A stretch of 64,000 nt of DNA. It comes from Fulvivirga marina (GTDB lineage: Bacteria; Bacteroidota; Bacteroidia; Cytophagales; Cyclobacteriaceae). The DNA lies in NCBI RefSeq assembly GCF_016775155.1, contig NZ_JAEUGD010000066.1, positions 64,763 to 128,762 on the forward strand, given 5' to 3'. A program made the translations under genes and the position numbers. Below are positions 6,209 to 43,373 of the stretch, piece by piece. Under the pieces are notes generated by a model. The model was not told the DNA's origin. It saw only the letters and a list, made by a program, of their open reading frames with translations, and did no database searches. Each line of letters opens with the position of its first letter. The stretch's first letter is position 1.

Positions 6209-6240
6209 TAATAATTTCTGTGTTTAAACAGAAATTATTA
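6209..6240 (-). terminator. Possible terminator hairpin overlapping a stop codon
   Basis: A perfect 13-bp stem (6209-6221 and 6228-6240) with a 6-nt loop covers the stop codon of the leftward MazG-like gene. The stem is AT-rich and the U-tract behind it is weak, so terminator function is uncertain. Confidence 0.45.
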
Positions 6241-6705: not shown

Positions 6706-6814
6706 ATATATAAGGAATTAATACAAAGGTAAAATCAATGATAAGATAACTGGAAGACAATGACTTGCCAGTACTACTAATCAGTTGCAATTTTAAACAT
6801 TAAATTGTAGTGGG

Positions 6815-6849
6815 AAAAGAAAACCCATGATAATCATGGGTTTTCTTTT
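6815..6849 (-). terminator. Rho-independent terminator of the efflux operon
   Basis: A perfect inverted repeat (6815-6831 and 6833-6849) 38 bp past the stop codon of the TolC-like gene. On the minus strand it ends in a T-rich run. Confidence 0.8.
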
Positions 6850-6886
6850 AAAGTCATCATATCATAGTTTACAACCAGGCCGCGCT

Positions 6887-8260
6887 TTACTCGGAAAGAT
6901 AAGTTTCTATTATACCTCCTGTCAGACGCATTAAGCTCACCTTTGAGTCTATAACATTATAAAGTGATTGTAATTCCTGAATAGCAGCAGTAAGGTTATC
7001 ATTTTGAACGGTTCTATAGTCGAACGAATTGATTGTTCCATTTTTAAACTTCTCCTCTGAAATTTGAAGGTTTTTTTCAGTGGCCTGCATTCTCCTGTCA
7101 CTGATCCTGTAAAGTCTCGTCCTGATTTCATATTCATCGTGAGCCTTGGCCAAGTCCCTGTACAATGTATTTTGGAGACGCTCAGTTCTGATATTTTCAA
7201 TATCTTCAGTAATGAGAGTATTTTCAATTGCTCTGTTTATTTTACCACCATTAAACAGTGTAAACGAGAGTGTGAAGTTGCCAAAGTAAGTATCCGTTAT
7301 CGCATTTAATGGATCAGAAGGGCCGGGGGTGCTTGTTCCATCACTAGAAGGAAAGGTTGCATTACTCAAATCTACCCTACTGCGATTGTGAGAGTATCCA
7401 GCGCTAAAACTTAATCGTGGATATTTATCAGCTCTACTTATAGCCACATCGTAGTCAAGGATACGTTGAGCAATATACTGCTTCTTTAAATCAACATTTT
7501 GCGCATTGAGCTTAGACATTAGATCGGCCATTTCATAAGTTTGGATTTCCACCTCCAGCTCATCTGTTAATACATAGGTTTTATCAACATCCTGCTCCGC
7601 TAATAGTACATTTAAATCCCTTATTGCGTTCCTGTAATTCAGCTCCTGATTGATAAAATTGGTCGAATCAGTTAGGTAATTAGTTTCTTCAAGCAGCAGA
7701 TCTGTACTCACCGCACTTCCTATATCTGACTTTATTTTAGTATACTCATATTTGTCTCTTGAAAGATGCAACTGCTTTTGAAACTCTTCCAAGCGTTCCT
7801 TTTCTAATACAGCCTTATAATAACCTAAAATTATAGATTGGATCGCATTAGCTATAACAATCTCTGCATTGCCTTTAGACTGAGCCTGGAGTTGCTCCAG
7901 GCGATGTTTGCTCATATTGATCTTAAAGCCATTAAATAATGTCCAATCAAGATTAACTGATGGGTTTAAGCTATTGGAAATGGTCTGATCCTGAAGCTGA
8001 AAGGGACTAGCTGTCTTCACATTGTCCGTTAACGAGTTGTTTTGATTGAGGTTAAGTGTAATTGTAGGGTAGCGACCTGCTTGCCCCCAGCTATTATTAT
8101 TTTCAGCAATCTCGACGTTCTTTTTTTCAATATTAATATCATAGTTCCTTTCCAGACCTAATTGTATGGCTTCAGAAAGAGATAATTCCTGTTGGCCAAC
8201 AGCTTTTAGAGAAGCTGCCAAAAACATAAAAAGTATTAGTATTAAATAATTATATTTCAT
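6887..8260 (-). CDS. TolC-family outer membrane efflux protein
   Basis: Outer-membrane channel component of a tripartite RND pump. The 457 residues start with a signal peptide (about 1-22, ending GQQ) and contain the two internal repeats of the TolC family, each with long coiled helices. The first repeat opens with LSLSEAIQLGLERN and the second contains the typical LFNGGKINRAIEN pattern after strands with alternating residues. Its length is normal for the family. It is the last gene of a three-gene operon, 27 bp after the RND pump gene, and is followed by a strong terminator. Confidence 0.92.
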   Translation of the reverse strand: MKYNYLILILFMFLAASLKAVGQQELSLSEAIQLGLERNYDINIEKKNVEIAENNNSWGQAGRYPTITLNLNQNNSLTDNVKTASPFQLQDQTISNSLNPSVNLDWTLFNGFKINMSKHRLEQLQAQSKGNAEIVIANAIQSIILGYYKAVLEKERLEEFQKQLHLSRDKYEYTKIKSDIGSAVSTDLLLEETNYLTDSTNFINQELNYRNAIRDLNVLLAEQDVDKTYVLTDELEVEIQTYEMADLMSKLNAQNVDLKKQYIAQRILDYDVAISRADKYPRLSFSAGYSHNRSRVDLSNATFPSSDGTSTPGPSDPLNAITDTYFGNFTLSFTLFNGGKINRAIENTLITEDIENIRTERLQNTLYRDLAKAHDEYEIRTRLYRISDRRMQATEKNLQISEEKFKNGTINSFDYRTVQNDNLTAAIQELQSLYNVIDSKVSLMRLTGGIIETYLSE

Positions 8261-25006: not shown

Positions 25007-25381
25007 TTACAGATTCTGGACCCACTCCATAGTTAATGGCTTTGAGATAAAACCTTTTACAGAAGAGTAAGTAAATGCCTTTTCTTTATCTTCCGAGGCT
25101 ATTGATGAGGTAAGCATAAATAGTCGACAATTATTATTAGAAGCAAATTCAATTTTCTGGTATTCATCCAGAAATCCCCACCCATCCATTTCGGGCATAT
25201 TAATATCCAGCATAATAATATCAGGAATATCACCCAGACTCGAATTGGCAGACTCTAGATACTCAAGAGCTTCTTTTGGGTTAGTATAAGCATTTACAAC
25301 ATATCCCCTGATTTCGAATAATTCCCGATTAATCATATTAGCAATGGGGTCGTCATCGATGAGCAAAACTTTCCTATCCAT
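25007..25381 (-). CDS. Stand-alone response regulator receiver
   Basis: 124-residue CheY-like receiver without an output domain. The acidic pair (LIDDDP, residues 7-10), the phospho-acceptor Asp (IIMLDINMPEMDG, about 56), the Thr/Ser of LTSS and the Lys of ISKPL are all present. It lies 4 bp after the multi-PAS kinase and is most likely its phosphorylation partner. With no DNA-binding domain it must act through protein contacts. Such single-domain receivers are common beside hybrid-type kinases in Bacteroidota. Confidence 0.92.
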   Translation of the reverse strand: MDRKVLLIDDDPIANMINRELFEIRGYVVNAYTNPKEALEYLESANSSLGDIPDIIMLDINMPEMDGWGFLDEYQKIEFASNNNCRLFMLTSSIASEDKEKAFTYSSVKGFISKPLTMEWVQNL

Positions 25382-25385
25382 TTAA

Positions 25386-28300
25386 TTACTTTAACTTTTT
25401 ATAGTTTAAAGGTAAGTATACCTTGAAAATCGAACCTTCATTAATATCACTTACAACCTCCACATACCCACCCAAAGCACCAGTCATTGTTTTAACCATG
25501 TTTACTCCACCTTTTGCATTACCACCACTATGAAACCGTTGATACAACCCGAAAATTTTATCTCCATACTTTTGCAGATCTATTCCGCACCCATTGTCTT
25601 CAACTGACAGACGGATAAAAGCTCCATCATAGACTGTTTTTACCTTGATTTTAGGCTCGCGCTGAGGGTACCTATACATAATAGCATTTGTCAAAAGGTA
25701 TAACAAGATGTTTCTAATGTAGTTTTTTAATGTGTCAATATGAGCAACCTTAAGATCTTCTAAAATAGAGGCCGAGGAAGCTTCAATATCTACTGACAAC
25801 TGACCAACTACCCAATCCAGTTCCTCCTTAAATGAAACAGTCTCCATTTTCTCTGCAACCATCTCCCTCACTGAGACAACCGAATTCATATCCCTTACTA
25901 CCTGATCAAGGCGACTGGCTTCGTCTGCCATTGCCTGAACACAAATTTTATCAACTGTCTCACTTTCATTAATAACCCCCGCAAGACCTAAAATATTAGC
26001 AAGAGGTGCCCTTAAATCATGAGACACAATATACGAGAACTGCTGAAGGTTTCTGTTTTTTTCCTTAAGGTTATTGATCAGGTTCAGAATCTCCTGCTCG
26101 GCCTTTTTCTTCTCAGATATATCTCGAAAAAACACAGTAAGTCCGTCTTCTGAAGGGTAAGCTTTTGCTGAAAACCATAACTGCAATGAAGAGTAATACC
26201 CTTCTGTTTCCATAACTTCCATGGCTTGCATCGCTTGTTTTAACATTTTATAGACAGGCCCACCTTCCAACTCAGGATGTACTTCAAGAAACTCCTTTCC
26301 AATAGTCTTGTCTTTACCTAACGGATGCATTCGCAAGGCTGCATCGTTCAAGAATGTATATTCCCACGAGTTGTTAAGAGAAATTACAGAATCATTTATC
26401 CTGTTTAAAACAGTTTCCTTTTCTCTGTATTCTGCAAGAGCCTTTTTCTCGGCCTCTAACCTCTGAGTGATGTCAATACCCATACCTATAAGGTATTCTC
26501 GCCCTTCGATACAAATACTACATCCCGAGAAATAATAAGGAATTTTCCTTTCAGATTTTGTATAGAAGTAAGATTCTATATCGTCTTTACCTTTTATAAA
26601 TACAGATTCAATTTTCTCACGCATCACCTCCTTATCCCCCTCATCAAAAAAATCAAGCGGATGCATTTGACTCACCTCTTCGGAAGTATACTCGGATATT
26701 TTTTCAAAATTTTTATTCCACCGATAAAATCTCCCGTACCGATCATACAAGTAGAATATACCGGGCAAACTATTTATAATAGAGTCAGACAAGTATTTCT
26801 CATAACTGATGGCCTGCTGGGTTTTGACTCTTTCCGTAACATCATAATAATTATAAACTATGGCACCAATGTTAACATCTTCAAGCAAATTGATATAATA
26901 CCCCTCTAACCAAATGTACCTACCACTTTTATGTTTAAACCTATACTCCGTATGAAATACCCTTCCTGGAGATTGCAACACTTTTTCAAACAATCGCACA
27001 ACAGCATCTCGATCATCAGGGTGTACCAGGCCAACACCATCTAGTTCCAACATATCAGAAAGTGAATATCCACTTATTCTAATAGTAGAAGGGCTTTGAT
27101 ACCTTACACCCCCATTGGCATCCATTAAAACGATGGCATTGGCACTGTTTTCAATCAGTGCCCTAAAGTACTTTTCACTACTAGCCAGCCGCTCTTTAGC
27201 CGTTTTCTGTTCTGTAATATCACGAATGAATATAGATACCCCATCAACAGACGGATAAAAATGACTTTCTAGCCATTTACTTTTTTCAGAGAAGAAGAAT
27301 TCAACGGATACGTATTCTTGTAAATCCATTGCCTTTTCAAAAGCATCATACCATGGACTTCCCGATAATTCAGGAAACTTAGCCCTGATATTCATCCCTA
27401 TAACCTGCCCGGATTTCAATCCAAAAAGCTTTGTCGCGCGTTGATTGATATAGGTACATCGCCAATCATTATCAAATGAAACAAAAGCATCACTTATACG
27501 GTCCAGGGTGGTTTTTGAATTTTCCTGAGTTGCCAGGAGTTGTGAAGTCATCTCTTTTACAAGTTTTTTGAGCTTTTCCGGTTTTTCCACCCATTGGAAT
27601 ACAAATACGCCCAGTATAAAGGAAAACAATATACCTCCCAAAACAAAGCCATAAACGCTATAATAGATTATTGAACCAGAGGCGCTACTCACATAAAGCA
27701 TCCATGCTCCGTCCGGCACTTCAATAAAAACTGAAGCTTCTTCCTGAGCGTTAATTTCATCCTTCAGAAAGAACTCCTGTTGCCTGGTAACCGGATTTAT
27801 TTTTGATAATTGGTATTTAAAATTATGATTTTGGTTTTGCATACCAAAAGCATCAAGGAGTGTGGATAGCTTGATGATTACGACTGAAAAACCAAAAAAC
27901 TCGCCATCCTTAAATATGGGCAATCTGCCCACAACTCCTTTACCCCCTTGCTTGAGATTAAGTGGCCCTGCAAAAAAAAGCTCTTTTCTTTCAATAGCTT
28001 TCATTGCTTCTCCACTAACAGATGAGTCTCTAAGTACATCAAAGCCCAGAGCTGGTTCATTTCCCTGTACGGGGTACACATGCGTAATCACCCCTTTACG
28101 GGTAAGCTGTAATGCATCAATATACTTATGAGAATCAAGGATATCATAAGCTACACTGTCAAAGTCTTCAGGCACACCATACTTTTCTACCAAATAACCC
28201 AATATACGGGTTGCAGACATACTATATTTTAACATTGCCTCTACCCTGTCACTTAATGAGTAGAGTTCATGCTTCACCTTTTTAGTTTCATTTTCTTTAA

Positions 28301-28388
28301 CAATGAGATATTGCTGATAGGCAAGGTACTGTGTTAAAGACAAAGTCAACAGAAAAGCAAAAAAGCCAATTACACGAGATCTTTTCAT
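25386..28388 (-). CDS. CHASE / multi-PAS sensor histidine kinase
   Basis: 1000-residue membrane kinase. A first membrane helix (about 7-27) and a second (about 240-262) enclose a periplasmic sensor that fits the CHASE family (LDSHKYIDALQLTRKGVITHVYP-type core, shown here only in part). Four PAS units follow (about 290-400, 405-525, 530-650 and 660-770), each ending in a DITE- or DISE-type linker. The HisKA domain has the acceptor His in IVSHDLRAPLANI, and the HATPase domain has an N box and a DNGCGI motif. No receiver is fused; the next gene supplies one. The divergent neighbour across 878 bp is a receiver that opens the polysaccharide locus, so a link is possible but unproven. Confidence 0.9.
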   Translation of the reverse strand: MKRSRVIGFFAFLLTLSLTQYLAYQQYLIVKENETKKVKHELYSLSDRVEAMLKYSMSATRILGYLVEKYGVPEDFDSVAYDILDSHKYIDALQLTRKGVITHVYPVQGNEPALGFDVLRDSSVSGEAMKAIERKELFFAGPLNLKQGGKGVVGRLPIFKDGEFFGFSVVIIKLSTLLDAFGMQNQNHNFKYQLSKINPVTRQQEFFLKDEINAQEEASVFIEVPDGAWMLYVSSASGSIIYYSVYGFVLGGILFSFILGVFVFQWVEKPEKLKKLVKEMTSQLLATQENSKTTLDRISDAFVSFDNDWRCTYINQRATKLFGLKSGQVIGMNIRAKFPELSGSPWYDAFEKAMDLQEYVSVEFFFSEKSKWLESHFYPSVDGVSIFIRDITEQKTAKERLASSEKYFRALIENSANAIVLMDANGGVRYQSPSTIRISGYSLSDMLELDGVGLVHPDDRDAVVRLFEKVLQSPGRVFHTEYRFKHKSGRYIWLEGYYINLLEDVNIGAIVYNYYDVTERVKTQQAISYEKYLSDSIINSLPGIFYLYDRYGRFYRWNKNFEKISEYTSEEVSQMHPLDFFDEGDKEVMREKIESVFIKGKDDIESYFYTKSERKIPYYFSGCSICIEGREYLIGMGIDITQRLEAEKKALAEYREKETVLNRINDSVISLNNSWEYTFLNDAALRMHPLGKDKTIGKEFLEVHPELEGGPVYKMLKQAMQAMEVMETEGYYSSLQLWFSAKAYPSEDGLTVFFRDISEKKKAEQEILNLINNLKEKNRNLQQFSYIVSHDLRAPLANILGLAGVINESETVDKICVQAMADEASRLDQVVRDMNSVVSVREMVAEKMETVSFKEELDWVVGQLSVDIEASSASILEDLKVAHIDTLKNYIRNILLYLLTNAIMYRYPQREPKIKVKTVYDGAFIRLSVEDNGCGIDLQKYGDKIFGLYQRFHSGGNAKGGVNMVKTMTGALGGYVEVVSDINEGSIFKVYLPLNYKKLK

Positions 28389-29266: not shown

Positions 29267-29662
29267 ATGAAGAAAAAGATATTGGTAATTGACGATGATG
29301 AGGCCATGAGATGGCTCATTAAAAAGATGCTTGAGAAGGACTATATTGTTGATGTGTTTAGTAATGTAGCACATGCATTGAAACATATGAATCAATTTGG
29401 CCACCCTGATGTTATTGTAACTGATATCCACTTACCAGTTATTGATGGAAAGGACTTTCTGACTAATCTAAAAACTAACGGTCTATATTCCGGGATACCT
29501 GTAATTGTCATCTCATCTTTCCGAGATGATAAAACTAAGAATTACTGTTTGGAAGCAGGTGCTGACGAATACATAGTAAAGCCATTTAATCCCGAAAAAC
29601 TAATTGAACTGCTCAACAACCTAATTACCAATAAACGAAAGGAGAACTCTCTAATCAATTAA
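29267..29662 (+). CDS. Stand-alone response regulator receiver, first gene of polysaccharide operon
   Basis: 131-residue receiver with all active-site residues: the Asp triplet in VIDDDE (about 8-10), phospho-acceptor Asp53 in VTDIHLP, Ser in ISSF and Lys in VKPF. No output domain. It is followed after only 3 bp by a gene that fuses a dead receiver to a sugar-phosphate transferase, so the likely partner of this receiver is that transferase rather than DNA. The kinase that phosphorylates it is not known; the nearest candidate is the CHASE/PAS kinase transcribed away from it. Confidence 0.92.
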   Translation: MKKKILVIDDDEAMRWLIKKMLEKDYIVDVFSNVAHALKHMNQFGHPDVIVTDIHLPVIDGKDFLTNLKTNGLYSGIPVIVISSFRDDKTKNYCLEAGADEYIVKPFNPEKLIELLNNLITNKRKENSLIN

Positions 29663-29665
29663 GAT

Positions 29666-30814
29666 ATGAAAGATGGTTATGTTTTGGATTTTCAGTCTCT
29701 CAAGCATGATAGCTCATTAATGGGAGAAACACCTAAAGTTGAGCATAAGAAGAAGGGGAATGTATTTTTCATTGGAGAATATGGCGATTTATGCCTGGAC
29801 CTGAAGCTTGAGAGTTATGACGTACATAACGTTAAGGATATCAGTGAAGGGGTTGAAATTTTACTTCATAATGCAAATTCTTCCACAGATAAACTTCCCG
29901 ACGTTATTATTATCAGCCAGAAAATAACGCCTGACTCCGTAGAAACAATAAAATCGTTAAAGAAAAGTAAAAGTTTAATAGAGATTCCGGTAATTATCAT
30001 AGCCGAAAAATTTGATGAAGAAGAACGCGATCTGGCCATCAAAGTTGGAGCGGAAGATTATTATACGGATAACATTAGTGCAAAATATCTTACACTTCGC
30101 ATTGAATTCCTGACCAGGTTGAAAACCTTATCCAACAACCAGGAACAGGAAGTTGGTATCAAACCTAAACCATCTCTTCATAATGGTGATTCTTTCAAAA
30201 TGTGGTCACTTAAGCGCGCCTTTGACATCGCCATATCAGCCTCATTATTATTAATGGTCAGTCCCATATTATTGATTATAGCCATAGCTATTAAAATCGA
30301 CTCTAAGGGGCCCATATTCTACATCTCTAAGAGAGCAGGGAAAGGATATCAGATTTTTAATTTCTATAAATTCAGATCCATGAGACAGGATGCTGATCAG
30401 GTTGTTAATGACCTCAAACATTTGAATCAGTATAGCAATGGTGATGATGCTTTATTCTTCAAAGTAAAAAATGACCCAAGAATAACCAAGTTGGGTTCAT
30501 TCCTAAGAAAGACAAGTCTTGATGAATTACCTCAATTATTCAACGTACTAAAAGGTGACATGTCGTTAGTTGGCAATAGGCCATTACCACTATACGAAGC
30601 TGAAAAACTCACACAAGATCAATGGGCTCTTAGGTTCCTTGCCCCAGCAGGCATTACAGGACTGTGGCAAATAACCAAAAGAGGGAAAGAGGAAATGTCT
30701 GAAGCTGAAAGAGTTGCCTTAGATATGGAATATGCCCAGAAAAACTCCTTCTGGTATGATCTGAAAATTATGCTAAAAACACCAGCCGCACTTCTGCAAT
30801 CAGAAGACGTATAG
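29666..30814 (+). CDS. Pseudo-receiver fused to polyprenyl-phosphate sugar-1-phosphate transferase
   Basis: 382 residues. Residues about 30-155 follow the receiver fold (PDVIII, IPVIII, KVGAEDYY), but the four active positions are lost: the acidic pair is replaced in FFIGEYG, the phospho-acceptor is Ser84, the Thr is Ala, and the Lys of the KP motif is Asp. Residues about 180-382 are a small monotopic phosphoglycosyl transferase with one membrane segment, KFRSMR, the catalytic Asp-Glu in TSLDELPQLFNV, and GNRPLP. Such enzymes load the first sugar phosphate onto undecaprenyl phosphate at the inner membrane. The C-terminal domain is sure; a regulatory role for the dead receiver is inferred. Confidence 0.92.
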   Translation: MKDGYVLDFQSLKHDSSLMGETPKVEHKKKGNVFFIGEYGDLCLDLKLESYDVHNVKDISEGVEILLHNANSSTDKLPDVIIISQKITPDSVETIKSLKKSKSLIEIPVIIIAEKFDEEERDLAIKVGAEDYYTDNISAKYLTLRIEFLTRLKTLSNNQEQEVGIKPKPSLHNGDSFKMWSLKRAFDIAISASLLLMVSPILLIIAIAIKIDSKGPIFYISKRAGKGYQIFNFYKFRSMRQDADQVVNDLKHLNQYSNGDDALFFKVKNDPRITKLGSFLRKTSLDELPQLFNVLKGDMSLVGNRPLPLYEAEKLTQDQWALRFLAPAGITGLWQITKRGKEEMSEAERVALDMEYAQKNSFWYDLKIMLKTPAALLQSEDV

Positions 30815-30851: not shown

Positions 30852-32036
30852 TTGAATATAGTCTTTTTTATTATTGAGATAGTCTTACTATCCTATTTTG
30901 CCTATGTAGCTCTGTACAACCTTACTCTTTCTGTAGCAGGACTTTTTTATCAAAAACCTCCCCTTGCTAAAGTAACCCGTAAAAATAAGTTTGCAGTACT
31001 GATTCCTGCATACAAGGAAGATGGCGTTATATTCCATGTGGCAAAAGAAGCACTTAATCAAACATATCCTAAGGATAGATATGAGGTGGTTGTGATTGCA
31101 GACTCCCTTCAGCCGGAAACCATTAGCAAGCTAAAAACATTACCCATTAATACATGTGAAGTGTCCTTTGAAAAAAGCACAAAGGTGAAAGCCATGAATG
31201 AAGCCATGAAACGAATTGGCGATGATTATGACTTTGTTGTGATTCTGGATGCGGATAATATCATGGAACCTGATTTCCTTGAAACCATGAACAATCTCCA
31301 TGAACAGGGATTTCTGGCAATACAAGGTCGCAGAGCAGCAAAAAATGAAAACAACTCACTATCTTACCTCGATGGACTTAGTGAAGAAATAAATAACCAT
31401 GTTTATGGTCGTGGAGGAACAGCACTCCACCTTTCAGCTGCTCTTAAGGGTTCCGGCATGTCATTCCGCTATGCTATATTGAAAGATATGCTCAAGCAAA
31501 TGGCTTCAATTGGAGGCTTTGACAGGGAACTTGAGCTAAGGTTGGTAAATGAAGGTATAAAGGTGAAATATGCTTCCAATGCAATAATTTATGATGAAAA
31601 GGTTGAGAAGTCCCATGTTTTTGAAAACCAAAGAAAGAGATGGATATCGAGCCAGTACTTTTATCTAAAACAATACTTTTTATCAGGAATTGTAAACCTT
31701 TTTAAAGGAAGAATAACTTATTTTAATAGTACCGTCCTTCGTAATGTGCAATTACCACGCTTGATTAACCTTGGACTTATCACTGGTGTTACTTTTACTC
31801 TTTTCTTTCTTCAGTCAGTCATAACCATTCCATTCAATATATGGTTTATGACCTGGAGTGCAACCATATTAGGAATTCTTCTGGCAATTCCCAAGAGCTA
31901 TTATGGTCCAAGACTAATAAAATCTGTATTTAGGCTACCGGCTATATTCTGGAAAATGTTCCTGCTGCTGTTTAAGCTCAAAGGAGCAAACAAGAAATTT
32001 ATTCATACACCCCATAGTTCCCCTAGTCAAAAATGA
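30852..32036 (+). CDS. Membrane-bound family 2 glycosyltransferase
   Basis: 394 residues. An N-terminal membrane helix (about 2-25) is followed by a GT-A domain with PAYKED, the nucleotide-sugar DAD motif (ILDADN, about 133-138), GFDRELE and QRKRW (a QxxRW motif), the set seen in processive or membrane-anchored GT2 enzymes. Two or three helices close the protein (about 300-365). The start is a TTG at 30852, chosen because no in-frame ATG precedes it after the upstream stop. It overlaps the next glycosyltransferase gene by 4 bp. Confidence 0.88.
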   Translation: MNIVFFIIEIVLLSYFAYVALYNLTLSVAGLFYQKPPLAKVTRKNKFAVLIPAYKEDGVIFHVAKEALNQTYPKDRYEVVVIADSLQPETISKLKTLPINTCEVSFEKSTKVKAMNEAMKRIGDDYDFVVILDADNIMEPDFLETMNNLHEQGFLAIQGRRAAKNENNSLSYLDGLSEEINNHVYGRGGTALHLSAALKGSGMSFRYAILKDMLKQMASIGGFDRELELRLVNEGIKVKYASNAIIYDEKVEKSHVFENQRKRWISSQYFYLKQYFLSGIVNLFKGRITYFNSTVLRNVQLPRLINLGLITGVTFTLFFLQSVITIPFNIWFMTWSATILGILLAIPKSYYGPRLIKSVFRLPAIFWKMFLLLFKLKGANKKFIHTPHSSPSQK

Positions 32037-32938
32037 AACCTATAATCAAACCGCTGGTTTCTATAGTTAGCATAAATTATAACAGCACTGTTCAGACCAA
32101 AGAGTTATTACTGTCCCTCAGAAAAGTTAACTATGAAAATCTGGAAATAATAATTGTTGATAATGGTTCTGCCAACAGGGATATAGAAGATATTGTCGAT
32201 GAATTCCCTGAAGTGAACTTTATCATGAATTCTGACAATTTAGGTTTTGCGGGAGGAAACAACGTAGCGATAAAAGAAGCTAAAGGCGAATATGTCTTTT
32301 TAGTAAACAATGATGCAGAACTGACCCCTGATTGTATCCCCCCCCTTTTGGATACATTTAAGCAGTTCGAAGATGTAGGGGCTGTGAGTCCTAAGTTTCA
32401 TTATTTCAATAAGCCCGGAATAATTGAATATGCAGGATATTCCTCCATTAGCGCTCTTACAGGAAGAAACGAAACAATCGGTGCCGATGAAAAAGACCAA
32501 GGACAATATGACCAGGTATCAGTAACTCATTATACCCATGGTGGTGGCATGATGGTTCCCAAAAGTATTATTGAGAAAGTTGGACCAATGCCCGAAGATT
32601 ACTTTCTCTACTATGAAGAGTTTGACTGGTGTGAAATGATAAAAAAGGCAGGCTATAAAATATATTATCAGCCAAAAGCGCTTGTATGTCATAAGGTTTC
32701 TGCTTCTATAGGTCAGGACAGTACACTTAAAACATACTACCTAACAAGAAACCGCATTCTTTTCATGCGAAGAAATAAAAGTAGCGTCTCATATGCCATT
32801 TTTCTAACGTTTCTCCTGTTCTTTACAATACCCAAAAACGTATTATCCTTTATTAGCAAAGGCAAATACAAACACTTATCTGTCTTCTGGAAAGCAATAA
32901 CCTGGAATTTTGGAATTAAAGAAGTACCACAGTTTTAA
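32033..32938 (+). CDS. Family 2 glycosyltransferase (rhamnosyltransferase-like)
   Basis: 301-residue GT2 enzyme. The fold is visible from VSIVSINYNS, IIIVDNGS, NLGFAGGNN and VNNDAE, followed by the acceptor-side DYFLYYEEFDWCEMIKKAG, which resembles the WbbL group of rhamnosyltransferases. The C-terminus has one hydrophobic stretch (about 255-275), suggesting membrane contact. Overlap with the previous gene implies translational coupling. The sugar added cannot be told. Confidence 0.9.
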   Translation: MKPIIKPLVSIVSINYNSTVQTKELLLSLRKVNYENLEIIIVDNGSANRDIEDIVDEFPEVNFIMNSDNLGFAGGNNVAIKEAKGEYVFLVNNDAELTPDCIPPLLDTFKQFEDVGAVSPKFHYFNKPGIIEYAGYSSISALTGRNETIGADEKDQGQYDQVSVTHYTHGGGMMVPKSIIEKVGPMPEDYFLYYEEFDWCEMIKKAGYKIYYQPKALVCHKVSASIGQDSTLKTYYLTRNRILFMRRNKSSVSYAIFLTFLLFFTIPKNVLSFISKGKYKHLSVFWKAITWNFGIKEVPQF

Positions 32939-32947: not shown

Positions 32948-34834
32948 ATGTGCGGCATAGCTGGTTTTATAGATTTTAATAAGCATTCGTCCGAAGAGAT
33001 ATTGAGGGCGATGACTGATGAATTGATCCATCGCGGACCTGACGATAGTGGTATTCATTTTGAAGATAATGAATACGCTCAGATCGGATTAGGACATAGA
33101 AGACTTTCTATTCTTGACCTGAGTATGCTGGGTCATCAACCCATGCAATTCCAACAATATACAGTTGTTTTTAATGGAGAGATCTATAATTTCAAAGAGA
33201 TTGCTGAGCTCCTTTCTCAAAAGGGATATAAGTTCAAATCCCACTCCGATACTGAAGTACTTCTCAAAGCTTTTGATTGCTGGGGTACCAAAGCAGTAGA
33301 TCATTTTATTGGCATGTTTGCTTTTGTACTCTACGACAAAAACAATGACGAGGTACTTTTCTTTAGAGATAGGGCTGGAGTAAAGCCCCTATATTATTAT
33401 TTTAAAGACGGATGTCTACTATTTGCATCAGAACTAAAAAGCTTTCATAAACATAGTTCTTTTAGGAAAGAAATAGATCATGATAATCTTGCTCTCTTTC
33501 TTCAGTATAACTATTTACCCGCTCCCTACTCTATATTCAAACATAGCTTTAAATTAGAACCTGGTCATTTTCTAAGACTCGACTTAAAAAATAAGGATCT
33601 CAAGAAGCATAAATATTGGGATGTTGTGGATCATTACAACAAACCAAAGCTGGACATATCTTATGACGAGGCTGTTGAAGAAACTGAGAAACTGCTTATG
33701 AGCGCATTCTCATATCGAATGGTCTCCGACGTACCAGTAGGATTGTTTTTAAGTGGTGGCTATGATAGCACTGCAGTTACGGCTCTGCTTCAGTCTCAAA
33801 GCACCGAAAAGATCAAAACATTTACCATTGGGTACGAAGAACAGGCCTTCAACGAAGCCCCCGAGGCTAAAAAAGTCGCTGATTACCTGGGAACCGACCA
33901 TACGGAAAAGTATTGTACTGCTAAGGATACAGCAGATATCCTCCATAAGCTTCCTCAAATTTATGATGAGCCATTTGCAGATAATTCAGTGGTACCTACA
34001 TTTCTTGTAAGTCAACTGGCACGTACTAAAGTAAAAGTAGCGCTTTCCGGTGATGCAGGCGACGAAATATTTGCCGGGTATGACAAGTTTAACAGAGCAG
34101 TTAATTTCACTAAGCTTCCAGGAGTAGCTCAAAGCCTCATGAGTAGTGCCATGGGATTGATATCTCCGGAAAACATCCCTGTATTCAATAAAAAATACAA
34201 CTTCTCGACAAGGTATGAGAAGATGAGAGAAATATGGAAGTATAAATCTCCATCTCACGCCATGAAAGTGATCTCTCAATTCATTACAGAGCAAGAGGCT
34301 AGAAAATATCTCACAAAAGACTTTCAAAATAAGAAGACATATTTCGACATTGAATCTGAATTGAATAATGGTAATGACCCTCTGAACAAGCTTCTTGCCA
34401 TTGATTACAAAACGTTTCTTTTAGATAACAACCTCACCAAAGTAGATAGGGCTACCATGGCAGTGGGCTTGGAAGGCAGAGAGCCTATACTGGATCACCG
34501 AATAGTTGAATTCGTAAGTCAGCTCCCTTCAAGTTATAAGATAAAGGATGGCGTCAACAAAAGTATATTGAAAACGATAGTTCATAAATATGTACCCAAA
34601 GCTATCATGGATCGTCCTAAAAAGCCATTCCTTGCACCCCTTACGGTTTGGTTTAAAGATGAGTTAAAAGACTATTACCTTGAGTATTTGGATGAGACTA
34701 GATTAAAAAATGATGGTATTTTTACTAAAAGTGTAATAGAACTTAGAAATGCGTATCTTTCAGGAAAAGAAATAAACCATCAAAAGCTGTGGAATATCTT
34801 GATTTTCCAACTGTGGAAAGAAAAATGGATGTAA
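32948..34834 (+). CDS. asnB: Asparagine synthase (glutamine-hydrolysing) family amidotransferase
   Basis: 628 residues with an N-terminal class II glutaminase domain (Cys2 as nucleophile in MCGIAGF, with HRGPDDSG and the NGEIYN motif) and a C-terminal ATP-pyrophosphatase domain with the PP-loop LSGGYDSTA (about 260-268). Housekeeping AsnB makes asparagine from aspartate. Copies inside surface-polysaccharide loci often amidate sugar acids or amino acids, and this position between glycosyltransferases and secreted hydrolases suggests that role here. The substrate is not proven. It overlaps the next gene by 10 bp. Confidence 0.9.
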   Translation: MCGIAGFIDFNKHSSEEILRAMTDELIHRGPDDSGIHFEDNEYAQIGLGHRRLSILDLSMLGHQPMQFQQYTVVFNGEIYNFKEIAELLSQKGYKFKSHSDTEVLLKAFDCWGTKAVDHFIGMFAFVLYDKNNDEVLFFRDRAGVKPLYYYFKDGCLLFASELKSFHKHSSFRKEIDHDNLALFLQYNYLPAPYSIFKHSFKLEPGHFLRLDLKNKDLKKHKYWDVVDHYNKPKLDISYDEAVEETEKLLMSAFSYRMVSDVPVGLFLSGGYDSTAVTALLQSQSTEKIKTFTIGYEEQAFNEAPEAKKVADYLGTDHTEKYCTAKDTADILHKLPQIYDEPFADNSVVPTFLVSQLARTKVKVALSGDAGDEIFAGYDKFNRAVNFTKLPGVAQSLMSSAMGLISPENIPVFNKKYNFSTRYEKMREIWKYKSPSHAMKVISQFITEQEARKYLTKDFQNKKTYFDIESELNNGNDPLNKLLAIDYKTFLLDNNLTKVDRATMAVGLEGREPILDHRIVEFVSQLPSSYKIKDGVNKSILKTIVHKYVPKAIMDRPKKPFLAPLTVWFKDELKDYYLEYLDETRLKNDGIFTKSVIELRNAYLSGKEINHQKLWNILIFQLWKEKWM

Positions 34835-36636: not shown

Positions 36637-39600
36637 ATGAACACCAAACCTAATTTTCTGCTTTGGGCGATTGTATTTTTACTTTCTCCAACAATTGGTC
36701 TGTCTCAGTTTACCCCTAGAATGACTCCAGCAGGAACAGGTTATCTGGAGTATTTACCTCCTGATTATGCCACAAATTCCACAAAAAAATATCCTTTGAT
36801 GATGTTTTTGCATGGTGCCGGTGAAAAAGGTAGTGGTTCCCCTTCTGACCTTGAAAAAGTAAAGGCACATGGCCCCCCAAAAGAGATTCAAAATGGCCAC
36901 AATATGTGCTTTACTGTAGATGGAGTGGAAAAATGTTTTATTGTCATTGCACCTCAATTACCAGGGGATAAGCCTTCTTGGGGCGTTTCTCTGATCGATG
37001 AAGTTTTTAGATATATACTTAATGGTTCATTAAACTATAGAGTTGATCTTAACCAAATACACCTGACAGGACTAAGCCTGGGTTCAAATGGTGTATACAA
37101 ATATTCTTACATGTCAGTGAATGACCCTAACAAACTGGCATCCATATCTCCCATAGCAGCATGGGCAGACACTAACAAGGGATGTGTGATCTCTGAAAGG
37201 GAAATACCACTCTGGGCATTTCATGGTGATCAAGACAAAACTGTTGGCTACGCCAGTGGGCTTGCCATGTTTAATTCTGTAAAAGACTGTACAACTCCGG
37301 TACCTACTGCAGAATTGATATTCACCACCTATGAAGGCATTGGGCATAACTCATGGACCAGAGCATACAATACAGGGCATACATACCACAACCCCAATTT
37401 ATATGAGTGGATGCTCTCTAAATCTCTATCAGGAAACCCAACAGCGAATGCAGGACCTGATCAATCTATTACACTACCTACGAACAGTATAACCATTAGC
37501 GGGTCTGGAAGTGACCCTGATGGCACAATTACATCATATCAATGGAAGCGAATATCAGGTCCATCAGCTAGTTTGGCTAATAATAACACTGCAACGCTCA
37601 CTGCAAACAACCTACTGGAGGGAATTTACACCTTTAGACTTACAGTAACAGATAATAGCGGAAATACAGCAACTGATGATGTTAACGTTACAGTAAACCC
37701 TGCCGCTGTAAACGTGTCCCCTACTGTTAATATTGATGCAGATATAACTTTGATACTACCTACCAGCAGTACCAACATTACAGGTACGGCGAGTGATGCG
37801 GATGGTAATATAGTAACCTATGCATGGACTCAACAATCCGGACCATCCACTGCAACAACCACTGGTGCCGCCAGCGCTACCATAACAGTAAGTAACCTAA
37901 TCGAAGGTACCTATAAATTTCGAATTACAGTTACTGATGATGATGGAGCTACAGCTTTTGATGAAGTTAATGTGATTGTAAACCCTGCAACTATAAACTC
38001 TCCTCCTACCGCAAATGCGGGTTCGGATAAAACTATTAATTTACCTACGAACAGTACTACACTTACAGGTAGTGGTAGCGATAGTGATGGATCAATAGTT
38101 TCTTATGCATGGGCGCAGCTAAGTGGCCCTACAGTAACTTTAGCTAACCAAAACACAACTACATTAGGTTTATCTGACCTAATCGAAGGAAGCTATGAAT
38201 TCAAAATAACTATTACTGATGATGATGGGGCTACAGGATCTGATAATGTTTTGGTAACGGTAATTGCAGCTAACCAAAATCCTAACGCCAATGCCGGTGC
38301 GGATATTAACCTGACGCTCCCCACCAATGCGACAAACCTTAGTGGAAGCGCAACAGATGCTGATGGTACTGTTACAGCGTACCTATGGCAACAAATAAGT
38401 GGCCCTGCGGCATCTACAATGGTCAATGCCAGCACTGCTACAGCCAGTATATCAAATCTTGTAGAAGGCACATACGAGTTTCAACTTACTGTCACAGACG
38501 ATGATGGTGCAGAAGATACGGATATTGTACAGGTTACAGTAATATCATTACCTCCAAATATTGCTCCTGTTGCCAATGCAGGTTCAGACAAAAATATAAC
38601 CCTCCCAGTAAATTCTGTTATGTTGAATGGGTCAGGCTCTGATTCTGACGGCACCATTGCCAGTTATTCCTGGACTAAAACTTCTGGCCCCTCTACCTTT
38701 TCACTTTCGGGCCAAAACACTGCAACACTAACTGCAAACAACCTGGTGGCAGGAACATATATATTCAGGCTTACAGTAACAGATGATGACGGAGCAACTC
38801 ATTTCGATGAAGCTACTGTGAGTGTCGCTCCAGAAACAGTTAACCAGTCTCCGGTAGCAGATGCAGGCACAAATATTAGCATCACATTACCAACGAATTC
38901 CGTTGTGATAAATGGCTCAGGAACCGACGCGGATGGTACAATAGCCAGCTATGGATGGACTCAAGTATCGGGTCCTTCAACGGCAACATTATCTGGAGAA
39001 ACAACGGCTGATCTGAGTGCAAACAATCTCATTGAAGGTGTTTATACATTCCAACTTACTGTTACCGATGACCAGGGAGCCTCTGGCTCAGACAATGTAA
39101 ACGTAACTATCACTGCATTAAACACCCCTCCTGTTGTTAATACCGGGGCGGATGTCAACCTTGTACTTCCTACAGATAACGTAGATATAACTGGTACAGC
39201 AACCGATAATGATGGAACGATAGCATCTACTCAATGGACTCAGATAAGTGGTCCGGCAGCCTCATTTACAGTAAGCGGCAATATAATATCAATAACTGGC
39301 CTTACGGCAGGAACATACATTTTCAGATTCTCAGCCACTGATAACGATGGTGATTCTGCTCAAGATGATGTAGAAATTGTAGTAACAGCATCTAATGTGC
39401 TACCTACTGTAAATGCCGGCCCTGATAAAAATGTAACACTTCCCACGAACAGCATTAACCTTACAGGTACAGCAAGTGATAGCGATGGCTCCATTGTATC
39501 ATACTCATGGAGTATAATAAGTGGCCCTATAGCCACTTTGGCTAATCAAAATACTACGACAGTAACAGTAAGCGACCTCACCGAAGGGTCATTTACCCTG

Positions 39601-41928
39601 CGATTTACTGCAACTGATAATGATGGGGGCTCTAAATCTGACCAAGCTATAATAACTGTAAATCCAGCAGCTACAAATCAGGTTCCTACCGCAGAAGCAG
39701 GCTCCAACTTATCCATTACACTACCTACTAACTTTGTTACCATTTCTGGAAGCGGGTCTGACACTGATGGTTCCATAGCCTCATATAACTGGACAAAAAA
39801 AAGTGGTCCATCAGCAGGAACTTTATCAAATAATACCACTCCTACACTTACTGTTTCAGGTTTGATAGAGGGTACTTACGTATTTACTTTGATGGTAACG
39901 GATGATGACGGGGCTACTGACATGGATGATGTTACAGTTACTGTAAACCCGGAAGCTGTAAATCAGTCTCCTACATCAAAAGCAGGTAGTGATATAACAT
40001 TGGTATTGCCTACAAACAGCACAAACATAGTAGGTGCGGGCAGTGATCCTGATGGTACTATTGTCAGTTATTCCTGGAGTCAGGCAAGCGGACCAACTGC
40101 GGCCACCTTATCAGGAGCCTCAAACCCTACAGTAACAGTAAACGATTTAGTCGAAGGTACATATACCTTTAGCTTAACCGTTCAAGATGATGACGGAGCA
40201 AGTGATGATGATTATGTCAATGTCATTGTTCAACCTGAAACTGTCAATCAAAAACCTACGGCTAATGCTGGTTTGGATAAAACTTTAGTGCTACCAACCA
40301 ATACAATTAATATTGTAGGTTCAGGTAGTGATGTAGATGGTTCCATTACAAATTATTTATGGACTAGAATCAGTGGTCCCGCAGCCGATCTGACTAATAC
40401 GTCCACTCCTACGATGACCGCAAGTAATTTACTGGAGGGGCAATATAAATTTAGACTTACTGTAACTGACGATGACGGTGACACCGGATCCGATGAAGTT
40501 ATAATAACAGTGCAACCAACTACGGTGAACCAATCCCCACTAGCCAGTGCAGGTGCTGACTTCACCTTGGTATTACCTACCAACTCAGCAATAATCTATG
40601 GATCTGGCAGTGACCCTGATGGCACAGTTTTAACCTACAATTGGAGTCAACTCAGCGGACCTTCGGCCACTTTAACCAATCAAAATACGCCACAACTCAC
40701 CGTAACCGATATGCTGGAGGGCGTCTATATATTTCGCCTTATCGTAACTGATGAAGATGGCGCTCAAGACTCCGATGATGTTCAGATAACCATCCTGCCA
40801 CTAAATACTAACCTTGCTCCAACAGCTTTTGCCGGAGCGGACCAAGTAATAAAACTCCCCACGAATACTGCCGTACTAAACGGTTCAGGAAATGATGTTG
40901 ATGGTACCATAGTCTCATATCTGTGGGAAAAGGTTAGTGGTCCCAATGGAACTTCTAGCGACCAGACTCAGGCCACACTTAACCTTTCTGACCTTTTAGA
41001 AGGTATTTACATCTTCAGCCTCACGGTAACCGATGACGATGGAGCTCAGGGGGCCGACGAAGTACAAATCAGCATTCTCCCTTCTTCTTTCAATCTGACA
41101 CCAGTAGCCAACGCAGGAGAAGACCTGTTTCTGGAACTTCCAACAAGCAGCATTGTGATCAATGGATCAGGTCAGGACCCAGACGGTATAATAGACACTT
41201 ATCACTGGTTTATGGCAAGTGGTTCAAATACACCTAGCCTTTCTGGAGAAAACACTTCAGACCTTTCCATTTCCGGTTTAATAGAGGGTGTCTACATCTT
41301 TACGCTTGAAGTAACCGATGATGGAGGACTGGCAGATTCTGATGATGTAAAAGTTGTAGTGACATCGCCTGATGTAAACGAAAATCAACCTCCCTTAGTT
41401 GATGCGGGACGGGACCAAATCATTATTCTTCCTGAAAACAACGCACTGCTAACAGGCAAAATGATAACCCCCGGCTTAATTGAATCTTACGCTTGGACGC
41501 AAATAGCAGGTGCAACAGCTCAACTAAGTGGAGTGGATTCTGATTCTCTGGTTGTAACCGGACTTGATGAGGGAGACTATACCTTTGAATTAACTATTAC
41601 CAACAACCAGGGGCTTTCAGGTAGTGACAGGGTTAATATAGAAGTTATTTCTCAATTTACCGACCTCCAATTTCCTATGAAAATGTTTAGCCCCAATCGT
41701 GATGGGGAAAATGATACATGGATACTCGATCCTGATTTGAGTAAGTATGAGAATTGCCATCTCTACATTTATAATAGACGAGGTTCTCAGGTGTATGAGT
41801 CAATATCATACCAAAACAACTGGGAAGCTCAGCTAAATGGTCAGGAGTTACCAGATGGAGTTTATTTTTACATTTTAAAATGTGATAACAAAACATCGTC
41901 ATCAGGAAGTATAACAGTAATAAGATAG
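36637..41928 (+). CDS. T9SS-exported alpha/beta-hydrolase with 15 PKD/Ig-like repeats and type B sorting domain
   Basis: 1763 residues. After a signal peptide (about 1-24) comes an alpha/beta-hydrolase (about 30-265) with FLHGAGEKG, GLSLGS (Ser147), HGDQDK (Asp200) and GIGHNSW (His237). Residues 268-1674 are 15 tandem PKD-like repeats of about 94 residues, each with a core like ITLPTNS, then SDPDGTI, SY.W...SGP, LxEGxYxFxLTVTDDDGA. The Asp-rich turns suggest calcium binding. The last 85 residues (FSPNRDGENDTW to the end) are a type B T9SS C-terminal domain, as in gliding-motility surface proteins. This is therefore a long surface-attached enzyme. The adjacent PorP/SprF gene fits as its secretion partner. 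Confidence 0.92.
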   Translation: MNTKPNFLLWAIVFLLSPTIGLSQFTPRMTPAGTGYLEYLPPDYATNSTKKYPLMMFLHGAGEKGSGSPSDLEKVKAHGPPKEIQNGHNMCFTVDGVEKCFIVIAPQLPGDKPSWGVSLIDEVFRYILNGSLNYRVDLNQIHLTGLSLGSNGVYKYSYMSVNDPNKLASISPIAAWADTNKGCVISEREIPLWAFHGDQDKTVGYASGLAMFNSVKDCTTPVPTAELIFTTYEGIGHNSWTRAYNTGHTYHNPNLYEWMLSKSLSGNPTANAGPDQSITLPTNSITISGSGSDPDGTITSYQWKRISGPSASLANNNTATLTANNLLEGIYTFRLTVTDNSGNTATDDVNVTVNPAAVNVSPTVNIDADITLILPTSSTNITGTASDADGNIVTYAWTQQSGPSTATTTGAASATITVSNLIEGTYKFRITVTDDDGATAFDEVNVIVNPATINSPPTANAGSDKTINLPTNSTTLTGSGSDSDGSIVSYAWAQLSGPTVTLANQNTTTLGLSDLIEGSYEFKITITDDDGATGSDNVLVTVIAANQNPNANAGADINLTLPTNATNLSGSATDADGTVTAYLWQQISGPAASTMVNASTATASISNLVEGTYEFQLTVTDDDGAEDTDIVQVTVISLPPNIAPVANAGSDKNITLPVNSVMLNGSGSDSDGTIASYSWTKTSGPSTFSLSGQNTATLTANNLVAGTYIFRLTVTDDDGATHFDEATVSVAPETVNQSPVADAGTNISITLPTNSVVINGSGTDADGTIASYGWTQVSGPSTATLSGETTADLSANNLIEGVYTFQLTVTDDQGASGSDNVNVTITALNTPPVVNTGADVNLVLPTDNVDITGTATDNDGTIASTQWTQISGPAASFTVSGNIISITGLTAGTYIFRFSATDNDGDSAQDDVEIVVTASNVLPTVNAGPDKNVTLPTNSINLTGTASDSDGSIVSYSWSIISGPIATLANQNTTTVTVSDLTEGSFTLRFTATDNDGGSKSDQAIITVNPAATNQVPTAEAGSNLSITLPTNFVTISGSGSDTDGSIASYNWTKKSGPSAGTLSNNTTPTLTVSGLIEGTYVFTLMVTDDDGATDMDDVTVTVNPEAVNQSPTSKAGSDITLVLPTNSTNIVGAGSDPDGTIVSYSWSQASGPTAATLSGASNPTVTVNDLVEGTYTFSLTVQDDDGASDDDYVNVIVQPETVNQKPTANAGLDKTLVLPTNTINIVGSGSDVDGSITNYLWTRISGPAADLTNTSTPTMTASNLLEGQYKFRLTVTDDDGDTGSDEVIITVQPTTVNQSPLASAGADFTLVLPTNSAIIYGSGSDPDGTVLTYNWSQLSGPSATLTNQNTPQLTVTDMLEGVYIFRLIVTDEDGAQDSDDVQITILPLNTNLAPTAFAGADQVIKLPTNTAVLNGSGNDVDGTIVSYLWEKVSGPNGTSSDQTQATLNLSDLLEGIYIFSLTVTDDDGAQGADEVQISILPSSFNLTPVANAGEDLFLELPTSSIVINGSGQDPDGIIDTYHWFMASGSNTPSLSGENTSDLSISGLIEGVYIFTLEVTDDGGLADSDDVKVVVTSPDVNENQPPLVDAGRDQIIILPENNALLTGKMITPGLIESYAWTQIAGATAQLSGVDSDSLVVTGLDEGDYTFELTITNNQGLSGSDRVNIEVISQFTDLQFPMKMFSPNRDGENDTWILDPDLSKYENCHLYIYNRRGSQVYESISYQNNWEAQLNGQELPDGVYFYILKCDNKTSSSGSITVIR
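37438..41658 (+). repeat. 15 tandem PKD/Ig-like coding repeats
   Basis: In-frame repeats of about 281 bp, each coding for about 94 residues. Protein similarity is high and DNA similarity is lower, so they are old or under diversification. The last unit is the most degenerate: its SDPDG turn is replaced by a GKMITPG stretch. Confidence 0.9.
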
Positions 41929-41945
41929 CAAGAAGTAAACCCAAC

Positions 41946-43373
41946 ATGCGAAAAATAACTTCACTAATTGCCTTACTTATACTTGTGACCATGAACGCAT
42001 TTGGTCAACAAGTACCGTCATATAATCAATTCTTTTTTAACCCGGCGCTATATAATCCATCTTTCATTGGTCAATCAGGTTATACAGAAGCAAACATTAA
42101 TCACCGTCAACAGTGGGTTGGAATAGAGGGTGCTCCAGTAACTACCAATGTCAATATTCAGACTCCTCTTTCAGAAAGACTTGCCTTCGGTTTAGTATTA
42201 TATAGCGACAAACTTGGATTAATAACCACCTATGAAACAACCGCTGGGTTTAGTTACAATATCAATCTTGGTCCCACGAGTCGCTTATCTTTTGGACTAA
42301 CCGCTGGTGTAGGTAGAAACGAGATCGAATTTGTCAACAATGATCCTGCTTATGCCAATGCCTTGGATAGGAGCTTTTATTTTTCCGGACAGTTTGGAGT
42401 CAATTTTACTTTGAACAGATTAACGGTAGGTTTTGCTCTACCTCAATTGATGGAATCTCAGTTTGCCCAGGAAAAGAATTTTGAAGAAATAGGGCTTGAA
42501 GCAACTAAACTTACTTTTTCATCTGTTTCCTATAAGTTTGATTTAGGGCAAAAACTGACCCTTGAGCCGACCATTTTTTATCAGAGTGACGAAAAGTCGA
42601 TTGATCAGCTAGGAGGTTTAGCTGCTATTACTTACAATGACCTTTTTTGGGTTGGTGGAGGATACAGAGAAGAACAAGGAGCTAATGGTTTTGCAGGCTT
42701 CACTATCAATGAATTTATCAAGGTGGGTTATGCCTATGAATTTGCTCCTGCCGCCATATCATCTGAACTTGGTGATGGCACCCATGAGTTTCAGGTTAGC
42801 ATAAAACTAGGCAAGAACAAAAGACAAAAAAATAAGACTATAGTAAGCAATGAAGTAATTCCCACAAGAAAAACTGACAATATCGGTAAACGCAGCGAAG
42901 TAATAGATAAAGAAGAGGCAGAGGAAACTGCAGGTATTCAACCAATAACCAAAGAAGGACTCATCCATACTGATGAGGCAAATAAAGCTATAAATAACAA
43001 GGAAGTGGCACCTGAAGAAAAAGAAGAAGATGTTCCGGTGATCCAAAAGAAATATGTTACCGAACTTGAAGAACGCTTATATGACGAGGATGAGGCGGCA
43101 AAAAAAGAGAAAGTCATCAAACCAGGGGAGCTTGCACCAGGTTTCTATGTAATAGTAGGTACATATCAAAGCAAACAAAATGCTGAATCATATGCTGCCC
43201 AGGTAAGAGCATCCGGTTACTATGTCTCTGTAGGATTTAACCCGGCAACAAGCCTTAACTATGTTTACATTAAGCATTCTGAGGATTTCGATTCCGCATC
43301 AGAAGTAAGGAATCAAATCAGGAAAATATATGAATTTGAATTCCAAGAAGCGTGGATTTTAAACATAAAATAA
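41946..43373 (+). CDS. PorP/SprF-family T9SS protein with C-terminal SPOR domain
   Basis: 475 residues. The N-terminal part (signal peptide about 1-21, ending FGQQ; barrel about 22-290) has the family signature NPALYNPSFIG and the HRQQWVGIEGAP motif of PorP/SprF outer-membrane proteins, which help type B cargo reach the surface. A lysine- and glutamate-rich linker (about 295-395) leads to a SPOR-like domain (about 399-475, FYVIVGTYQSKQNAES...), a fold known to bind denuded peptidoglycan glycan strands. The gene follows the type B cargo by 17 bp, which fits a dedicated partnership. Confidence 0.9.
   Translation: MRKITSLIALLILVTMNAFGQQVPSYNQFFFNPALYNPSFIGQSGYTEANINHRQQWVGIEGAPVTTNVNIQTPLSERLAFGLVLYSDKLGLITTYETTAGFSYNINLGPTSRLSFGLTAGVGRNEIEFVNNDPAYANALDRSFYFSGQFGVNFTLNRLTVGFALPQLMESQFAQEKNFEEIGLEATKLTFSSVSYKFDLGQKLTLEPTIFYQSDEKSIDQLGGLAAITYNDLFWVGGGYREEQGANGFAGFTINEFIKVGYAYEFAPAAISSELGDGTHEFQVSIKLGKNKRQKNKTIVSNEVIPTRKTDNIGKRSEVIDKEEAEETAGIQPITKEGLIHTDEANKAINNKEVAPEEKEEDVPVIQKKYVTELEERLYDEDEAAKKEKVIKPGELAPGFYVIVGTYQSKQNAESYAAQVRASGYYVSVGFNPATSLNYVYIKHSEDFDSASEVRNQIRKIYEFEFQEAWILNIK

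Follow-up and report, generated by a model that had tools for sequence, protein, structure and literature searches.

The window analysed here, a 64,000-nucleotide stretch of the Fulvivirga marina genome, contains two adjacent genes that lie on the plus strand and share one frame. The first (29267..29662) encodes a lone, that is, single-domain receiver of 131 amino acids, which matches PF00072 with E = 7.8e-27. Its pocket is complete in alignment (D9 D10 D53 S83 K105); among 17 lone receivers, the window's included, D10, D53 and K105 are invariant, and D9 and S83 nearly so. The second (29666..30814) encodes a fusion of 382 amino acids, recognized from Pfam, AlphaFold2 and Foldseek as a pseudo-receiver joined to a monotopic phosphoglycosyl transferase (PGT). 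Only 3 nt (29662 to 29666) separate the two. An earlier note on this DNA had described an intact lone receiver (Asp53) 3 bp upstream of the fusion; its coordinates, strand and gap proved exact, and all five pocket residues are indeed present.

Downstream, and also on the plus strand, the gene next to the fusion encodes a family 2 glycosyltransferase (30852..32036); it is followed, with a 4-nt overlap, by a second one (32033..32938), for which the best NCBIfam model is the rhamnosyltransferase TIGR01556 at a score under the cut-off. An asparagine-synthase-type amidotransferase comes next (32948..34834): it exceeds the TIGR01536 cut-off and has its top score with the XrtA/PEP-CTERM amidotransferase model, under that model's cut-off. 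The region 36637-43373 encodes a protein of 1763 amino acids in which 15 PKD stretches were matched and which has a type IX secretion signal of the CHU_C kind; a PorP/SprF-SPOR protein follows it. On the other side of the pair, on the minus strand and divergent from it, 25007-28388 holds a CHASE-PAS histidine kinase (25386-28388) with its own single-domain receiver. The genome carries two more PF02397 genes, and no receiver was found within about 3.5 kb around either. A F. kasyanovii protein is 93% identical to the window's, and, among 1035 records matched in a plasmid search, a single one covers the fusion for 80% or more of its length.

The catalytic domain of the PGT occupies residues 181-377 of the fusion (30206..30796, plus strand), as delimited by PF02397, which matches residues 183-377 with E = 4.2e-63, and by invariant columns. 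With the DX12P motif definition and the catalytic residue roles taken from section 8 of PMC12802240, the membrane-helix motif corresponds to D187/P200 and the catalytic dyad to D286-E287, all invariant in 45 fusions; K235, R281, R305 and D365 are invariant in the same set and were equated with PglC residues by spacing. The fold is PglC-like, Foldseek aligning the model with 8e37_A over about 200 columns (E 1.0e-13, TM 0.83 by target length). The Asp-Glu dyad, the DX12P motif and this fold place the window protein among the monotopic PGTs (Bac_transf), and the assignment made in the earlier note is thereby borne out. At a related locus (L079:1432-2796, genomes G164 and G137), the PGT match breaks in two at about profile position 65, suggesting an insertion within the catalytic domain.

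The N-terminal half is less easily recognized. The match to PF00072 is weak (E = 0.0058, 17.2 bits vs a cut-off of 30.2), and the pseudo-receiver domain was placed at residues 31-156 (29756..30133, plus strand) from alignment, from its (beta-alpha)5 fold and from Foldseek matches to PhoB receivers. In the AlphaFold2 model, built on a 45-row alignment, residues 1-30 are disordered and beta1-alpha1 to beta5-alpha5 span residues 31-162, with pLDDT at 90-96 per ten-residue block from residue 31 to 150. Residues 157-180 (30134..30205, plus strand) comprise the end of the last receiver helix, at residue 162, and a poorly modelled linker, pLDDT being under 50 at 161-176. Foldseek matches were allotted to the halves of the fusion according to Pfam domain positions, and about 127 columns align with PhoB receivers (TM 0.78 by target length for 1zes_A). 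We also considered whether the domain could be a relic of the DUF of large PGTs; this was ruled out, since the model shows the topology of a receiver and its Foldseek matches include receivers. PF13727 was absent from the window fusion at E <= 0.1.

In an alignment of lone and fused domains, the five pocket positions of the window's fused domain read G37 E38 S84 A113 D135. An intact pocket upon proper alignment, the outcome that could have overturned the original proposal, thus did not materialize. As for the claim that the acidic pair, the phosphorylated Asp, Thr and Lys were all lost, it is correct for Ser84 and for the absent Thr and Lys, and too strong for the acidic pair, of which an acidic residue (E38) is left at the second position. 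With these pocket residues lost, the domain should be phosphate-blind. An excerpt of PMC12632262 defines a pseudo-receiver as a receiver without any one of five pocket residues, and a receiver fold with an incomplete pocket is what we find here; Ser84 at the phosphorylation site further makes the fused domain an aspartate-less receiver. Across the 45 fusions, 27 match PF00072 at E <= 0.01 (5 of the 27 being one-piece forms, with an intact fused receiver) and 18 have no such match, nor have the divergent fusions L122, L136 and L142 any receiver match before the PGT at E <= 0.1; in part of the family, the term 'pseudo-receiver' therefore denotes an assignment by alignment only.

To examine how widely the pair is conserved, we collected related loci from genome contigs (36 loci), 58 near genomes, 390 genomes of the window's order (158 with a match at E <= 1e-60), 395 genomes of the phylum (100 with a match), 396 genomes of a second order of the class (110 at E <= 1e-100) and 98 genomes of an order outside the class (3 at E <= 1e-90). 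Searches used the proteins of the window together with a profile (A1) derived from 19 fusions, and we chose regions among the better matches; the fractions given below therefore apply to this PGT clade, not to all PGTs. Clade membership was set at 200 bits or more to the clade profile, and copies with identical last 200 residues were merged, which reduced 306 rows to 277 distinct loci. A lone receiver was counted if it lay upstream on the same strand, with a gap of -260 to +700 nt.

In 240 of the 277 loci the catalytic domain is preceded by at least 95 residues, and 37 are short. The fused pocket is degenerate in 229 of the 240 long PGTs and intact in 11. Upstream, on the same strand, a lone receiver is present at 220 of the 229 degenerate fusions, and at none of the 11 PGTs with an intact fused receiver; the short PGTs are divided between 17 with and 20 without one. 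The median gap in the 220 paired fusions is 14.5 nt, with 174 between -30 and +60 and 46 overlapping, some of these gaps and overlaps being overcalled since each ORF start was taken as the earliest possible start codon. The pocket of the lone receiver is intact in 208 of 237 cases. The layout of a receiver followed by a pseudo-receiver-PGT is conserved across Bacteroidota, and the search for the same two-gene arrangement in other genomes of the phylum, which the earlier note had put forward as a check, therefore came out in its favour.

Could such adjacency arise from a chance neighbourhood? As a control, we considered 30 PF02397 loci from 14 family-carrying genomes, out of the 51 match rows listed. 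Eight were family members, and all eight had an adjacent lone receiver, whereas none of the 22 non-family PGTs of the same genomes is directly preceded by a receiver; for 3 of these 22, a receiver ORF does occur at another place in the stretch. Chance neighbourhood was ruled out on these grounds.

By the automatic rule, nine degenerate fusions have no upstream lone receiver (L330, L243, L245, L130, L251, L260, L293, L327 and L347). L330 may be no true exception, for its receiver match is in an ORF of 286 aa, overlapping the start of the PGT, that was dropped by a 260-aa length limit. No receiver was found in 5.4 kb upstream of L243 (the same gene as L011); L245 (L118) is truncated at the N-terminus, the nearest receiver being 4.9 kb upstream; and at L130 a receiver gene of 118 aa is convergent, 13 nt away. 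The L130 PGT itself (4254-7130) is 958 aa long, its first ~600 residues giving no Pfam match at E <= 0.01. The remaining five showed no receiver in the sequence examined, which for L260 is a stretch of only 587 nt. Among the loci counted as paired, L077/L244 has its receiver as far as 637 nt upstream.

Degeneration of the fused pocket has gone to different lengths: of the five residues, 73 of the 229 domains retain none, 92 one, 55 two, eight three and one four. The Asp of the phosphorylation site is kept in 68 and the Lys in 18, so loss of the Asp is not family-wide. The fused receivers of L101 and L106 read DHESK and DPESK, with Glu at the phosphorylation site and an intact lone receiver upstream of each; these partly kept pockets are perhaps an intermediate stage.

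In the 17 short loci that have a lone receiver, fewer than 95 residues precede the catalytic domain, too few for a receiver; these loci keep the lone receiver without a pseudo-receiver, and the constant pair is thus receiver plus PGT. A quickly built tree of 171 PGT domains requires 9 changes for the combination of short PGT and lone receiver, 3 of them forced, and the pseudo-receiver appears to come or go while the lone receiver persists. The mutual exclusivity of one-piece and two-piece forms is striking in our sample and rests on few events: the same tree requires 3 changes to the one-piece form, with well-supported branches forcing 1, which leaves too few pairs for significance in an independent-pairs test. 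On a tree of receivers that included 69 lone ones, and in which many forks are unresolved and at least 6 of the 30 'generic' comparison rows duplicate, exactly or nearly, lone receivers of other loci, the smallest set that contains all 11 one-piece receivers has 14 members (support 92, not starred). The other three of the 14 are the lone receivers of L049, L152 and L162, all short-PGT loci. This placement fits a simple fusion of a lone receiver gene with a short PGT gene.

The lone receiver can degenerate as well, and it does so in about one in eight cases (29/237), so that control by phosphorylation is not universal. A Glu at the phosphorylation site can mimic phosphorylation. In the window's order, the lone receivers of L181, L183, L184 and L201-L204 read DEESK or EEESK, with Glu at this site and the remaining pocket kept, and these seven are possibly locked in an active-like state. 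At L264, L285, L313, L316, L317, L321, L322, L331, L341, L345, L346 and L349, lone receivers missing one or both acidic-pair residues or other pocket residues stand next to degenerate fusions, so that neither receiver of the pair is live. In lineages with degenerate lone receivers, either the switch would be frozen or another signal would be used.

What could phosphorylate the lone receiver? We looked for HPt proteins on the same strand and within 3.5 kb upstream, in loci with at least 3 kb of upstream sequence, with a profile built from L041, L044, L172, L149 and L133, five loci that match by construction. An HPt was found upstream of 13 of 63 two-piece loci (2 of the 13 scoring just 19-20 bits), 8 of 15 short PGTs with a receiver, 1 of 9 one-piece forms and 0 of 19 receiver-less short PGTs; PF01627 was matched in 5 of the 10 proteins scanned. 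L041 (4211-10485) and L044 (4158-10411), of flavobacterial type, share a gene row made of a ~447-aa receiver-bearing regulator, an HPt, the lone receiver, the fusion and proteins of ~250 and ~740 aa. For parts of this row, Pfam identifies the regulator as NtrC type and the HPt in L044, and in L041 the HPt, an OEP match in the ~250-aa protein and a weak, sub-threshold Wzz match in the ~740-aa protein. L172 encodes a hybrid kinase as well as a separate HPt, and kinase-receiver-HPt hybrids lie upstream in L149 and L133. The window contains no HPt gene; the genome has 8 HPt matches, 7 of them above the cut-off, all outside the window. A near relative (L034) has a kinase and receiver at the same place as the window's kinase, and no kinase was found within 3.5 kb at L035 and L037; the window kinase (25386-28388), the nearest to the pair and with its own receiver beside it, is at most a candidate for the cognate one.

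The closest functional precedent is found in Myxococcus xanthus, where, according to excerpts of a 2025 mBio article (PMC12802240), EpsW~P activates EpsZ, lies near it as detected by proximity labelling in vivo, and EpsW co-expression raises EpsZ activity in a heterologous host. Like the window pair, EpsW and EpsZ are a single-domain response regulator and an initiating monotopic PGT, and allosteric control of the first step was proposed for them. EpsZ, however, belongs to the large PGTs and has both a transmembrane bundle and a cytoplasmic DUF, on which the published structural (dimerization) model relies, whereas the 180 residues ahead of the window PGT consist of a disordered stretch, then a receiver fold, then a linker. 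Against the NCBIfam models, the window proteins score far too low, at 52.8 bits where the EpsW cut-off is 200 and at 166.6 where that of EpsZ is 800; Pfam and AlphaFold2 give no large-PGT architecture. By analogy, the window pair would most likely work like EpsW/EpsZ without being a member of that system. The suggestion that such a regulatory layout was undescribed has to be narrowed accordingly: the principle that a receiver switches a PGT was in print in 2025 for EpsW/EpsZ, and what differs is the layout with a dead fused receiver and a live lone one.

Three other known systems bear on this question. PMC12802240 cites O'Toole et al. 2021 (PNAS) for receiver domains in small monotopic PGTs, which share with the window fusion a receiver attached to a monotopic PGT. 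In the sentence with this citation, dead and intact fused receivers are not told apart and no partner lone receiver is named, and overlap with our family is possible. A receiver fused to a PGT is thus already known, and the association of a dead fused receiver with a live lone one is new in the literature searched: a search of titles and abstract openings returned, among the matches listed, no pseudo-receiver PGT paired with a lone receiver. In PleD, as described in part of PMC12632262, a receiver and a pseudo-receiver adaptor likewise precede an enzyme; there both receivers belong to one chain and the enzyme is a diguanylate cyclase, whereas in the window the receiver is a separate protein, encoded by its own gene, and the enzyme is a PGT. 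Finally, WbaP-type large PGTs also have a cytoplasmic domain before the same kind of catalytic domain, which an excerpt of PMC10942596 gives as PF13727 with a dimerizing beta-hairpin and not, as in the window, a receiver fold.

Taken together, we propose that the two genes probably constitute a single post-translational switch that controls the first committed step in making a surface polysaccharide. The lone receiver would be phosphorylated at Asp53 by a histidine kinase, in several relatives perhaps via an HPt; the phosphorylated receiver would bind the adjacent PGT at the inner membrane and change its activity, most likely upwards. Sugar-1-phosphate would then be loaded on undecaprenyl phosphate only while the signal is on, a behaviour that published work reports only for the analogous EpsW/EpsZ. 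The pseudo-receiver, unable to take phosphate, would most likely be a fixed adaptor for docking or dimerization, keeping the lone receiver in contact with the catalytic domain, and would stand where large PGTs have their cytoplasmic DUF. We are not equally confident in each part: it is very likely that the lone receiver acts on the PGT, and likely that the effect is activation rather than inhibition; that the pseudo-receiver is an adaptor is, on balance, the better guess.

That the lone receiver, once phosphorylated, switches the first step of polymer synthesis, as initially put forward, is supported, and the principle is in print for EpsW/EpsZ. Its second half, that heterodimerization with the dead receiver is the essential step, fares less well. 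In the strict form of this reading, the phosphorylated lone receiver and the dead receiver heterodimerize via their alpha4-beta5-alpha5 faces and the contact itself is the switch. Conservation within the pseudo-receiver is highest at D131 and R145, and D/E131 with R/K145 are retained in 104 of 117 two-piece pseudo-receivers despite the lost pocket, vs 74 of 117 at the matching lone positions. We take these two residues to lie on the alpha4-beta5-alpha5 face and to match the salt-bridge pair of PhoB-type dimer faces. This face is the dimer surface of many pseudo-receivers (PMC12632262, section 15), and phosphorylation-dependent heterodimers of receivers and pseudo-receivers are proposed in the same review (sections 15 and 19). 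Modelling is consistent with a contact: the AlphaFold2 pTM is 0.54 for the fusion alone vs 0.74 with the lone receiver tethered in front (515 residues, read-through linker), at about equal mean pLDDT and with alignments and lengths that differ between the two models. By rough arithmetic, the first value would be about that of a PGT with an unplaced pseudo-receiver, and the second that of three placed domains. When the tethered model is aligned to the PleD chains listed, 299-317 columns are covered but the rmsd is 13.4-18.0; the model hence does not arrange the two receivers as in PleD.

Covariation does not single out the receiver/pseudo-receiver contact either. The top 100 mutual information scores of 117 pairs, with ancestry uncontrolled and without a null, include 28 lone/PGT, 6 lone/pseudo-receiver and 4 pseudo-receiver/PGT couplings; the lone side was often at alpha4-beta5-alpha5 positions, a clustering absent from the later mean-field DCA. 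In that analysis (220 pairs, effective number 175, 435 columns; again with ancestry uncontrolled and without a null), the top 100 comprise 20 lone/PGT couplings (of 23,716 possible), 9 lone/pseudo-receiver (14,278) and 8 pseudo-receiver/PGT (23,128), scattered along the chains and naming no interface. The pseudo-receiver alignment used for covariation is poor, with a mean identity of 0.17. Partial distance correlations are 0.35 for lone/PGT and 0.22 for lone/pseudo-receiver, with ancestry uncontrolled and only 4 rows in the thinned set. Both coupling analyses lean to the lone/PGT side, and we base no conclusion on any of these figures. Relatives dispense with the pseudo-receiver (the 17 lone-receiver loci with short PGTs and the 11 one-piece forms), so the heterodimer step cannot be the whole story, and we consider its strict form unlikely.

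Less probable still is a pseudo-receiver that serves as a constitutive homodimerization module of the PGT, the co-transcribed lone receiver acting elsewhere, for example on transcription or on another export protein. The conserved D131/R145 pair would suit a homodimer, and the NtrC-type regulator within the L044 gene row would suit a transcriptional output; against this stand the 11 loci in which an intact receiver is naturally fused to the PGT, and the adjacency of receiver and PGT in 220 of 229 loci vs 0 of 22 for other PGTs of the same genomes. It is equally improbable that the lone receiver is a brake, its unphosphorylated form holding the PGT off or its phosphorylation inhibiting it, as the phosphorylated receiver activates in the EpsW/EpsZ analogue (PMC12802240, in the part cited above).

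Our preferred reading therefore remains that of a phosphorylated lone receiver acting on the PGT, with the pseudo-receiver as adaptor. More tentatively, a broader picture is possible, to which we give somewhat less than an even chance: a Bacteroidota PGT clade would be under the control of phosphorelays through a trans-acting receiver read by a built-in pseudo-receiver, a split counterpart of PleD that gates the loading of the lipid carrier, and lineages would repeatedly have lost the pseudo-receiver, fused the live receiver or killed it. If this is true, killing the live receiver would freeze the switch.

The authors of the 2025 mBio article proposed, in the text excerpted here, that receiver control of initiating PGTs may extend past myxobacteria (PMC12802240). 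The Bacteroidota loci would carry such control to a second phylum, and to an enzyme without DUF or transmembrane bundle. They would also link phosphorelays to the use of a limited carrier, undecaprenyl phosphate. The working of pseudo-receivers was called a mystery in a 2025 review, in the part that we cite (PMC12632262), and this family, in which the pseudo-receiver is present, absent or replaced by an intact receiver, offers natural test cases.
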